From contig JAAYTD010000087.1 of NCBI GenBank assembly GCA_012518115.1, forward strand, positions 1-64,000: 64,000 bases of DNA, read 5' to 3'. Origin of the DNA: Ignavibacteria bacterium (GTDB lineage: Bacteria > Bacteroidota > Ignavibacteria > Kapaibacteriales > UBA2268). Positions within the stretch are counted from its first letter, which is position 1; each line of letters begins with the position of its first letter. The notes under the pieces are model-generated. The model was not told where the DNA came from and searched no databases. It saw only the letters and a program-made list of their open reading frames with translations. The translations under genes were made by a program, and so were the position numbers. Positions 33,052 through 39,385 of the stretch are shown here, piece by piece.

Positions 33052-33107
33052 TTAAGAAAAAGTATTATTAAAATTCTATATTTTTGATAATTACTTTATA
33101 CATTTCG

Positions 33108-33151
33108 CATCTTGTGTACTTTTCTAAAATAAAAGTGTGCAAGATGTTTTT
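33108..33151 (+). terminator. Long intrinsic terminator after gap
   Basis: A 16-bp uninterrupted stem (33108-33123 with 33131-33146, three G.U pairs), a 7-base loop and five T. It lies between gap and the SDR gene and rules out the in-frame start at 33084 for that gene. Confidence 0.9.
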
Positions 33152-33170
33152 ATTTATTATAAATCGTAGT

Positions 33171-33890
33171 ATGAAAAAAACAATTTTGATTACAGGAGCA
33201 GCTAAGCGTATAGGTGCTTCTTTAGTAAAAAAATTTCATCAAAAAGGTTGGAATATCATTCTTCATTACAATACTTCTGCACAAGAAGCAGAAGAACTCA
33301 AAAATAGTTTAACAAACGATGACAATAAAATTGTTGCTATTCGAGCTGATTTACAAAAAGAAGCCGATATAATTAATCTTTTCAAAGAAGCACAAACTCA
33401 CTTTGAAGAAATTGATGTTTTAATTAATAACGCAGCTGTTTTTCCACCTAAAAAAGAATTAAAAGATACAAGTGTAGATTTTTGGGACAATGTATTTGAT
33501 ATAAACTTAAGAGCACAATTTATAACAACACGTGAATTTGTAAAACACTCATCTAAGAACGCTAAAGTTATTAATTTTGCTTCATTAGGCGGACTTGAAA
33601 TATGGGAAAAACGTATATCTTATAATGTTTCAAAATCCGCTGTTATTCAATTAACAAAAGCACTTGCACGAGAACTAGCTCCTAATATCGCAGTTAATTG
33701 TATCTGTCCGGGCTTGGTAAAAATTGATGAAAATTATTTCTCTATACCTGAAGAAAATATTCCTATGAAACGTTATGCTACGATTGATGATGTTTTTGAA
33801 TTAGCTTATTTTTTATCTACTTGCACGAATTATATTACAGGACAGATTATAAGTGTGGACGGCGGGATGAGTTTGAAAAAGAATATTTAG
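33171..33890 (+). CDS. Short-chain dehydrogenase/reductase, pteridine-reductase-like
   Basis: 239 residues from the ATG at 33171. The cofactor motif is ILITGAAKRIGASLVKKF; the TGAxxRIG form (Arg instead of the middle Gly) is seen in pteridine reductase/FolM-type SDRs and implies NADPH. Later come LINNAAVFPP, the YNVSK catalytic pair with Ser in FASLGG, and the C-terminal YITGQIISVDGGMSL. Substrate is not determined; a 3-oxoacyl-ACP reductase is the alternative. Upstream in-frame start codons lie before the terminator of gap and are rejected. Confidence 0.82.
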   Translation: MKKTILITGAAKRIGASLVKKFHQKGWNIILHYNTSAQEAEELKNSLTNDDNKIVAIRADLQKEADIINLFKEAQTHFEEIDVLINNAAVFPPKKELKDTSVDFWDNVFDINLRAQFITTREFVKHSSKNAKVINFASLGGLEIWEKRISYNVSKSAVIQLTKALARELAPNIAVNCICPGLVKIDENYFSIPEENIPMKRYATIDDVFELAYFLSTCTNYITGQIISVDGGMSLKKNI

Positions 33891-33932: not shown

Positions 33933-33963
33933 TTGCTAATTTCAAAAAAATGTTGTATATTTG
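33933..33963 (+). promoter_or_regulatory. Promoter of small RNA copy 1
   Basis: TTG (33933-33935), 20 bases, TATATTTG (33956-33963). The same spacing is kept in all three copies. Confidence 0.8.
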
Positions 33964-33974
33964 TAATTAAAAAT

Positions 33975-34074
33975 AGGTTTGTAGTGAACTGAGCTGCTTC
34001 CCTCATTCGTAAGAATGAGTTTCTTTGTAAAAAGAAATCGAAGGAAGCCGTGTGAAGCACTATGAACCTTTTTT
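33975..34074 (+). ncRNA. Tandem structured small RNA, copy 1
   Basis: About 100 nt, first of three. Closing helix P1 is AGGTTTGTAGTG (33975-33986) with CACTATGAACCT (34058-34069), followed by six T, so P1 doubles as an intrinsic terminator. Inside: P2 GCTTCC (33996-34001) with GGAAGC (34043-34048). P3 is CTCATTC-GTAA-GAATGAG (34002-34019) and P4 is TTTCTTT-GTAA-AAAGAAA (34020-34037). Both loops are GNRA tetraloops. P2, P3 and P4 form a three-way junction. No ORF is shared among copies and there is no ribosome binding site. I know no named RNA family with this layout; function unknown. Confidence 0.85.
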
Positions 34075-34082
34075 ATAAAAAA

Positions 34083-34113
34083 TTGATTGTTTCAAAAAAA
34101 TATTGTATATTTG
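34083..34113 (+). promoter_or_regulatory. Promoter of small RNA copy 2
   Basis: TTG (34083-34085), 20 bases, TATATTTG (34106-34113), 4 bases before the first base of helix P1. Confidence 0.8.
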
Positions 34114-34117
34114 TAAT

Positions 34118-34220
34118 AGGTTTATAGTGAACTGAGCAAGCTCCCCCGCTTGAAAGAGTGAGTTTCTTTGTAAAAAGAAATCGGTAGGGAGCCACGTGTG
34201 AAGCACTATAAACCTTTTTT
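34118..34220 (+). ncRNA. Tandem structured small RNA, copy 2
   Basis: About 103 nt. P1 is AGGTTTATAGTG (34118-34129) with CACTATAAACCT (34204-34215) plus a T tail. P2 is GCTCCC (34140-34145) with GGGAGC (34187-34192). P3 is CGCTT-GAAA-GAGTG (34147-34151 and 34156-34160). P4 is TTTCTTT-GTAA-AAAGAAA (34163-34180). Compared with copy 1, P1 exchanges two G.U pairs for A-U pairs, P2 exchanges U-A for C-G, and P3 changes most of its sequence yet still folds. The internal loop AACTGAG (5') and GTGTGAAG (3') is identical to copy 1, which makes it a candidate functional core. Confidence 0.85.
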
Positions 34221-34228
34221 ATAAAAAA

Positions 34229-34259
34229 TTGCTGATTTCAAAAAAATATTGTATATTTG
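34229..34259 (+). promoter_or_regulatory. Promoter of small RNA copy 3
   Basis: TTG (34229-34231), 20 bases, TATATTTG (34252-34259). Confidence 0.8.
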
Positions 34260-34263
34260 TAAT

Positions 34264-34359
34264 AGGTTTATGGTACAAAGCAGGCTCCCCGCTCGAAAGA
34301 GTGAGTTTTTGGAAACAAAAATGATAGGAGCAAATGCTGTTACTATAAACCTTTTTTTT
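34264..34359 (+). ncRNA. Tandem structured small RNA, copy 3 (most diverged)
   Basis: About 96 nt. P1 is AGGTTTATGGTA (34264-34275) with TACTATAAACCT (34341-34352) plus eight T. Its last pair is A-U where the other copies have G-C. P2 is GCTCC (34284-34288) with GGAGC (34327-34331). P3 is CGCTC-GAAA-GAGTG (34290-34303). P4 is GTTTTTG-GAAA-CAAAAAT (34305-34322), different in nearly every base from the other copies but the same length and again a GNRA loop. The internal loop differs (ACAAAGCAG against AAATGCTG), so this copy may have lost or changed the core function. Confidence 0.82.
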
Positions 34360-34385
34360 ATATAAAAAATTGCTGATTTTTTAGT
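34360..34385 (+). repeat. Vestigial start of a fourth small RNA unit
   Basis: ATATAAAAAATTGCTGATTT repeats the segment at 34221-34239 that leads into the copy 3 promoter. The -7 box and RNA are absent. It marks where the tandem repeat ends, 27 bases before the convergent TonB receptor gene. Confidence 0.7.
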
Positions 34386-34411: not shown

Positions 34412-36415
34412 TTAAATTTTAATGATAATTCCACACAAAAATTCACGTCCAGGGGCAGGAATACCTATTTTTATTCTTCTATATGTACTAAAAATATTGT
34501 TACATCTTGCATAAGCTTCAACAATAAAATTGCTGACAAAAATATCGTAAGATAATCTCAAATTAAGCAAACAAGTAGGATCTAATTCATCAAATTGATT
34601 TTCGCCTGCAAGTGCATATTGTTTTCCTATAAAATCTAATTCTACACTGCTTTTTACTCCTATTTCTGTTAATACATTAGTAGTTAGAGCTCCTGCAACA
34701 ACTGGTCTATAATCTAAATGTTCAATATTTACTTTATCATCTGTTCCTTCGGAATACATATAAGTAAAATTAGCATTTATATTTAGATGTTTAGTAATAT
34801 CATATTGCAATATAAATTCACTACCGAAAATTTTCGCGCTAGCTATATTTGCTCGCATCTCTAAACCACTTTCACTATCATAAGTTTTTACAATCATATC
34901 ATCATAAAAATTAGCAAATAAAGTAGCTTTGCAAAATAATCGCTCATTTGAAAACAAATATCCAATTTCAGCAAGTATATTTGTTTCTGGTGCTAAATCA
35001 GGATTAACTTTAAATTTTCCAAGTGCTGCAGAATAAGATTCACGTAAAGATGGAAATCTTATTTTACGACTAAAATTTCCAAACAAGGTATTTCTTTGAT
35101 TTAGCAAGTAATTAGCAGTAAATATAGCACCGAAATCAGAATTTTTAGTATTATTTGCCTCTATAAATTTTCCAGCTTTTGGCGTTATTACATAATCAAA
35201 CTCAGCGCCTATTTTTGTTTCCAATTTATCCCCAAATTTATGAGTATATTCACTACTTAAAGAAAATAGGTTTTGAGAAAATTGAGTATTTTCAGTTTTT
35301 CCCTCTTTCTCGCCTGCCTCATCATTTACGAAAGAAATAATATCTTCGTCGTGAGTTGTCAAAACAGCATTAGCTGCTAATGCTATATGGTTATTATCAG
35401 AAAAATTATATAAATTTATAAGCCGAAATCCGTTTGTTAAATCGCCATTACTTTCTCTTTCTTTTCGTTTTGAATAAGTAATATCTTCGTAACTATCTAT
35501 ATTTTGATGAGTTTTATCAAGCCAATAAGTAAATTTCATTTTATTATTGTCAAGAAACCAATTTGAATTTAGAGTGAACAGAAATCTGTCATTATCATCA
35601 TATTTCCAAAATCTTGCTTTGCTCGGCTTTTTATGTTCTTCGGGAATTACACCTTTATCGTACATAGAATAATTTATAGAAGTACCTATTGCGAATACTT
35701 CCCCAATTTTATATTCTGTTTTTCCATAAAAATTCTTTTGTTTGAAATAAGAATTAGTAATTAGTGCGGAATTATAATCATAATTTTGTAAGTCTTCAGG
35801 TGTGTTTTTTGAAGCTACTTTTCCAGCAACATCTAAAAAATTAGCTGCAAGAATATAATTAAAATTATTTATTCTGCCATCGTGAGTAAAAGATAAATTT
35901 TTCGCATTTCCGTCCCCTAACTGAACTTTCGCCGTTCCGCCAAATCCGTTGTATTTCCGTTCAAAAGTAGTCATAGAAACTATTCCCATCATATTATTAG
36001 GACCATAGAGAACAGAAACCGGCAGCAGCTCTATTCGTCCTATAATATTTGGATTAAATATTCCAAGATCTGCTCTTGCGTCCCAAGGAATTGACAATAG
36101 AGCTCCATCAGCAAAAAAATTTGTTTGTCTCTCTTGACTTCCACGATAGGTAAATATAGATTCACCTCGCGAATTTGTTTGCAAATTGAAGGAAGGTAGT
36201 AGCGTTTTTAAATCTTCAAATAAAAACACATCTTTAGATTGTATTTCACCATAATTTATTCTTGGATTAATTGAAAAGAAATTCATCTTGTCCAATACAA
36301 TATTTATCTCGCCTAATTTATAAACTTTTAGCGAATCTACAGCTTTACTATCAATGTTTAATAGTAGAGTTAAAATTATTAACAACACAATCTTATAATA
36401 AGCCATTGACTTCAT
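34412..36415 (-). CDS. TonB-dependent outer membrane receptor
   Basis: 667 residues with a signal peptide (YYKIVLLIILTLLLNIDSKA). The plug domain is residues ~50-165 (FLFEDLKTLLPSFNLQTNSRGE, TYRGSQERQTNFFADG, GRIELLPVSVLYGPNNMMGI). The C-terminal ~480 residues are a 22-strand-type barrel. RKIRFPSLRESYSAALGKFKVNPDLAPE is the family's conserved block, and the final strand is FLCGIIIKI. No carboxypeptidase-like N-terminal domain or SusD partner is present, so it is more like a metal, cobalamin or siderophore receptor than a glycan one. The B12-dependent glutamate mutase encoded downstream makes cobalamin a plausible cargo, which is inference only. Confidence 0.88.
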   Translation of the reverse strand: MKSMAYYKIVLLIILTLLLNIDSKAVDSLKVYKLGEINIVLDKMNFFSINPRINYGEIQSKDVFLFEDLKTLLPSFNLQTNSRGESIFTYRGSQERQTNFFADGALLSIPWDARADLGIFNPNIIGRIELLPVSVLYGPNNMMGIVSMTTFERKYNGFGGTAKVQLGDGNAKNLSFTHDGRINNFNYILAANFLDVAGKVASKNTPEDLQNYDYNSALITNSYFKQKNFYGKTEYKIGEVFAIGTSINYSMYDKGVIPEEHKKPSKARFWKYDDNDRFLFTLNSNWFLDNNKMKFTYWLDKTHQNIDSYEDITYSKRKERESNGDLTNGFRLINLYNFSDNNHIALAANAVLTTHDEDIISFVNDEAGEKEGKTENTQFSQNLFSLSSEYTHKFGDKLETKIGAEFDYVITPKAGKFIEANNTKNSDFGAIFTANYLLNQRNTLFGNFSRKIRFPSLRESYSAALGKFKVNPDLAPETNILAEIGYLFSNERLFCKATLFANFYDDMIVKTYDSESGLEMRANIASAKIFGSEFILQYDITKHLNINANFTYMYSEGTDDKVNIEHLDYRPVVAGALTTNVLTEIGVKSSVELDFIGKQYALAGENQFDELDPTCLLNLRLSYDIFVSNFIVEAYARCNNIFSTYRRIKIGIPAPGREFLCGIIIKI

Positions 36416-38975: not shown

Positions 38976-39385
38976 GTTCTGTCTGAACTGTGATTTTATG
39001 GGATTTTTATGATTTTTATGATTATGAATATTGTCGGGGCGTGTCGCGACACGCCCTACGCAGCTTGACGGAGTAATCTATAATTGTCTGAACCGGAATT
39101 AACAGGATTAAAGGATTAGCAGATTATTGAAACATGTGCCGTAGGCACAAAATTTCGGTAAAAGAAATGTAATCTTACTCATCTCGTCCCGTACGGGACG
39201 AAACATAAGGCAAGTATAGTTTTTTACCGATATTTAATCCCTACGGGATTTTTGAGGGTATATAGTTCATAGCCACACCTCCCCTGCTTCGCAGCTACTC
39301 CTCTCAAGAGGAGAATTTGCACGCTCAACGAAGTTAGAAAATTCCCCTTCGGAACGAAGTAGCAAACAAAGTTTGACTGGATAGT
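38976..39385. repeat. Composite hairpin-rich intergenic repeat, long copy B
   Basis: The core 39032-39318 is an inverted copy of 10272-10546, with all modules in reverse order: GGGCGTGTCGCGACACGCCC, a GGATTAAAGGATTAGCAG block, GTGCCGTAGGCAC, the hairpin CGGTAAAA...TTTTTACCG enclosing CGTCCCGTACGGGACG, AATCCCTACGGGATT, then CTCCTCTCAAGAGGAG. The flank 39325-39380 adds TTCCCCTTCGGAACGAAG and the AAACAAAGTTTGAC module. The 580-base gap between flhA and mlaE contains nothing else that I can identify. Confidence 0.9.

Follow-up and report, generated by a model that had tools for sequence, protein, structure and literature searches.

A multicopy family of predicted autonomous structured RNA genes in an Ignavibacteria genome

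Three tandem units between a dehydrogenase and a receptor gene

The window analysed here is a stretch of 64,000 nucleotides from an Ignavibacteria bacterium (assembly GCA_012518115.1, contig JAAYTD010000087.1, positions 1 to 64,000, forward strand), which also carries an FHIPEP (FlhA-type) gene. Between a short-chain dehydrogenase gene (33084-33890, + strand) and a TonB-dependent receptor gene (34412-36415, - strand), three units lie in tandem at 33933-34364. The periods of about 150 and 146 bases given in the first-pass annotation proved exact, and the core of the promoter it had placed at each unit, TTG-N20-TATATTTG, is present three times on the + strand (33933..33963, 34083..34113 and 34229..34259). 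The predicted structured RNAs that follow on the same strand are W1 (33973..34074, 102 nt), W2 (34116..34220, 105 nt) and W3 (34262..34357, 96 nt), scoring 58.5, 66.4 and 65.8 bits with a covariance model.

The helices correspond to the layout previously described, with P1 as closing helix running into a T-tract and P2, P3 and P4 arranged around a three-way junction. P1 pairs 33975-33986 with 34058-34069 in W1, 34118-34129 with 34204-34215 in W2 and 34264-34275 with 34341-34352 in W3, and P2 pairs 33996-34001 with 34043-34048, 34140-34145 with 34187-34192 and 34284-34288 with 34327-34331, respectively. P3 and P4 occupy 34002-34019 and 34020-34037 in W1, 34147-34160 and 34162-34181 in W2, and 34290-34303 and 34305-34322 in W3, while the T-tract extends to 34074 in W1, to 34220 in W2 and from 34352 in W3. 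Folding energies range from -36 to -40 kcal/mol, with z-scores against shuffled sequences of -6.7 (W1), -5.2 (W2) and -6.4 (W3), and no shuffle equalled any of the three. All six hairpin loops of W1-W3 are GTAA or GAAA, as first reported, but GNRA loops are no family-wide rule; several other members carry a UUUU loop on P4 and a UCAA loop on P3.

The extended TTG-N20-TATATTTG pattern, composed from W1-W3 themselves, matched the three units with 0 mismatches, against 0.00 matches expected in 100 shuffles of the window. In a DNA search of the same genome, matches outside the arrays lie upstream of the tRNA-Phe gene (C22), a tRNA-Met/tRNA-Pro pair (C26) and the tmRNA gene (C6), where the layout is that of the unit 1 promoter; these tRNA and tmRNA promoters share the TTG...TTTCAAAAAAA...TATNTTTGTA arrangement in part with the RNA units. 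Judged by sequence, the promoters of most units thus resemble those of the tRNA and tmRNA genes of the same genome, and from this likeness high constitutive expression of the units is predicted.

Further copies in the genome and searches beyond it

A DNA search of the same genome revealed extra copies on contigs C71, C48 and C35, bringing the closed units to at least 19 in three chromosomal clusters: W1-W3, which form the smallest, five on C48 (v1-v5, C48:4212-5073) and 11 on C35 and C71 (x1-x7, C35:8858-10490; u1-u4, C71:120-733). Since the end of C35 and the start of C71 have 118 identical bases in common, these contigs are very probably neighbours and their units one 11-unit cluster. The idea of a self-contained structured RNA array in the window was borne out, but the array is not alone, with 16 more units in two clusters outside it. 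Members are mostly 96-130 nt long and uniformly oriented inside each cluster, and nearly all sit in the same frame of promoter, 1-10 nt ahead of P1, and T-tract.

Covariance models gave strong matches to 13 units and weak ones to some of the shorter or diverged variants. The shorter members v3 and x4 are entirely devoid of the P3/P4 element, and v5 and x7 (L018:4993-5073 and L019:5409-5491) form a type of their own, closed in the same way but with the interior GTTAGGGA-hairpin-GTCYCAC, and are poorly picked up by the main model. Directly upstream of v2, v4 and u1 lies a further module, termed B (AAGCTGTGGCTCTCTATA...; L018:4358-4489, L018:4715-4845 and L019:5552-5705), which has its own promoter, lacks a T-tract and continues straight into these units; a separate promoter was not seen in the three units themselves. 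By its fold (z -1.0 to -1.6), B does not stand out clearly from shuffled sequence.

The closest relatives of units are often found in another cluster. Identity is 92% between v4 (C48) and u4 (C71) and likewise between u2 and x1, which lie on either side of the C35/C71 join; for W3, v1 (80%) is a little closer than the adjoining W2 (77%). Subtypes are mixed between clusters and would thus be older than the present clusters or have been exchanged between them, which makes it likely that units have spread within the genome. No recombinase was found among the neighbours checked around the clusters, which included the FHIPEP gene in the window and, beside the other clusters, genes for a sigma-70 factor, an AI-2E family transporter and lumazine synthase. 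Two frames on the - strand sit among units x3-x6 of the C35 cluster, one of 90 aa just under the cut-off of the Pfam DnaJ model (L019:4319-4591) and one of 65 aa matching it (L019:4967-5164). No close copies of these J-domain frames were seen elsewhere in the family. As a lead to similar systems they were discarded: other matches in the family fall mostly within longer frames, probably DnaJ/CbpA, and phage or viral matches were weak.

Absence from the named RNA families, as supposed in the first-pass annotation, agrees with the Rfam covariance search, in which the W1-W3 array matched no model at gathering score and the other clusters none at E<=1; the weak matches, with E of 0.016 at best and scores well short of gathering, concerned animal, enterobacterial and plastid models. 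The family's own covariance models gave no match outside the genome of origin among 59 relatives, 53 family, 122 order and 395 phylum genomes, these sets overlapping and the filtered first look, which scores part of the candidates, being able to miss diverged copies. Pattern searches of GTDB contigs and IMG/VR and BLAST searches against phages and plasmids yielded nothing supported by the model: in 16 GTDB and five viral contigs with the core pattern, no match to the model reached significance (best E 0.2). A laxer model run on 35 relatives gave weak matches in three genomes (G010, G040 and G043; E 0.15-2.6) that do not hold up, the G010 and G040 loci having no comparable unit or array and the G043 match spanning only 33 bases. 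The only other genome of the genus (95% complete) has neither units nor a match to the neighbouring receptor gene, so that no empty site can be shown there.

In a DNA search of the relatives, 14 genomes were matched, including the genome of origin, and the foreign matches read closely were AT-rich promoter-like stretches rather than RNA, some of them preceding tRNA genes. One relative (G009; L029, L037, L039, L041, L043-L045) holds at least seven near-identical copies of a promoter-bearing sequence with differing upstream flanks, each near a contig end and perhaps a transposon end. Within the window, two weak matches at 39150-39350 were rejected as an unrelated region outside any promoter/P1 frame; the surrounding intergenic stretch (39020-39380), with its many short inverted repeats and motifs resembling 'CCCTACGGGA', is unrelated to the array.

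Fold, covariation and conservation

The structural alignment comprised the 13 members with a three-way junction, all paralogues of one genome, and was fitted to the structure; 95.3% of its paired cells can pair. Changes on both sides occurred in 15 of the 32 pairs (shuffled mean 6.3, slid controls 1-4), with a covariation score of 0.314 against 0.207 for shuffled and 0.043-0.111 for slid alignments; these counts lean upward because the alignment was fitted to structure and its rows are paralogues, yet the gap to the controls is still large. RNAalifold returned the same helices from this alignment, with 30 pairs. The earlier conclusion that compensatory changes reveal selection on structure, for which three copies are too few as proof, is therefore backed by 13 alignable genomic copies. 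G.U cells outnumber A.C cells (34 vs 8), an excess that points to selection acting on the + strand as RNA.

Wherever a promoter was matched, P1 (AGGTTTATAGT...ACTATAAACCT) begins close after the -7 box; with the T-tract directly on its 3' side, this helix closes the transcript and can act as terminator stem. The most conserved part comprises P3, the A adjoining it on the 3' side and the 5' base of P4, a nearly invariant element (CRCUC-NNAA-GAGYG-A-GUUU) with 1.7-2.0 bits per column. P2a and the junction strands are variable (0.7-1.0 bits per column), and P4 varies most in length, with long hairpins in u3, x1 and v2. Free stretches longer than 4-6 nt are absent from most members. The P1/P2 internal loop was also considered by eye as a kink-turn or ribozyme, but the motif is not conserved across members and this reading was dropped. 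W1-W3 each combine an own promoter, an own terminator and a conserved covarying fold, and are predicted on this basis to be autonomous structured RNA genes.

Possible roles of the RNA family

Taken together, the units are most probably autonomous structured RNA genes that form a multicopy family, limited to one genome within the searches made (probability about 0.85), and the family looks new and lineage-specific. A fuller reading, in which these lineage-specific RNAs bind a protein and titrate or scaffold it, is plausible and is proposed tentatively. The RNAs would be transcribed, abundant and stable, stability being expected since P1 locks the two ends together. The CRCUC-NNAA-GAGYG-A-GUUU element would serve as putative protein binding site, with P2 and outer P4 as variable arms diversifying the copies, and copy number would set the dose of the titrating or scaffolding RNA. 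The promoter and P1 sequence that the units have in common may allow copies to multiply by unequal recombination, and copies have probably spread between loci. Recent common descent or gene conversion could also account for the invariance of P3, and the protein-site model does not explain v3 and x4, which lack the element.

A close comparison within the phylum is FopS/GibS, a multicopy paralogous sRNA family of Bacteroides with 14 members in B. thetaiotaomicron, own sigma-ABfr promoters and the RRM protein RbpB as partner; FopS RNAs are about 65-70 nt long with a free 5' seed, and FopS/GibS share a conserved 41-nt R1-type motif (PMC11697453). The units described here are likewise multicopy, paralogous and transcribed from predicted promoters of their own in a member of the Bacteroidota, and their genome also encodes one RRM protein, so that paralogous sRNAs repressing mRNAs by antisense pairing come into question. 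We consider this unlikely. Whereas FopS is a short sRNA with an unstructured 5' seed, the units are mostly 96-130 nt (96-105 nt in the window), closed by P1, built around a three-way junction and set in tandem clusters of one genome; their 5' end lies inside P1, only runs of 4-6 nt are exposed in most members, and the free junction strands are those that differ most between members. Such a closed anatomy would be a poor antisense design and is usual for protein-binding or scaffold RNA. With few bases free for antisense pairing and P3-A-P4 nearly invariant, an RNA that is bound by a protein and has variable arms therefore seems the better reading.

It is similarly improbable that the units are selfish or near-neutral RNA gene cassettes, spread by recombination without service to the host and keeping their fold for termination and persistence. 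The mixing of subtypes between clusters, the variable arms, the varied modules in one frame and the absence from all relatives searched would suit such cassettes, but compensatory changes also occur in P2 and P4, beyond the terminator stem, which implies selection on the inner fold, and no recombinase lies among the neighbours checked. Palindromic repeats of the REP, MITE or attC-like kind, whose fold would matter as DNA and not as RNA, are very unlikely, even though P1 is an inverted repeat of conserved sequence and both strands fold well: the G.U excess speaks against them, the promoter closely preceding P1 and the T-tract directly after it would be needless for a DNA repeat, and the copies are clustered in one orientation per cluster. 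A known mobile palindrome, the counter-case raised in the first-pass annotation, finds no support as far as tested, given the promoter-terminator frame and the pairing bias towards the + strand. A more speculative view, also doubtful, is that of an RNA gene cassette array in which promoter and conserved closing stem are a standard frame. Such a frame would gather different structured RNA modules, namely three-way junctions, the short hairpin forms, the 130-150 nt B module and the v5/x7 type, next to small J-domain frames, and let them diversify and pass from one locus to another; if true, one lineage would gain a fast-evolving RNP repertoire.

For the preferred protein-bound RNA, CsrB/RsmZ-type RNAs offer a functional parallel, as they titrate a protein via a repeated short hairpin element with GGA in the loop. 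The same could hold here, where a short hairpin element also recurs, but this element occurs once per unit over separate RNA genes and has no GGA in the loop. Orphan stand-alone structured RNA candidates are already known from the Bacteroidota, namely 6S-Flavo (RF01685), Bacteroidales-1 (RF01693) and Flavo-1 (RF01705) (PMC2864571); the present units resemble them in phylum and stand-alone character but match no Rfam model at gathering score, and no precedent for tandem structured sRNA arrays in Bacteroidota was found in the literature. Conservation between species is the usual route to structured RNA families; this one is visible only via paralogy within one genome, and comparable families would therefore escape standard searches.

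Should expression of the RNAs reach levels like those of tRNAs, a genome of 2.5 Mb would be investing much in at least 19 orphan RNAs, and their partner would be a good target for direct biochemistry. A reasonable first candidate, by analogy with RbpB in Bacteroides, is the 100-aa RRM protein of RbpB-like size encoded on the - strand of contig C64 (L130:1411-1713), the only RRM_1 match found in the genome.
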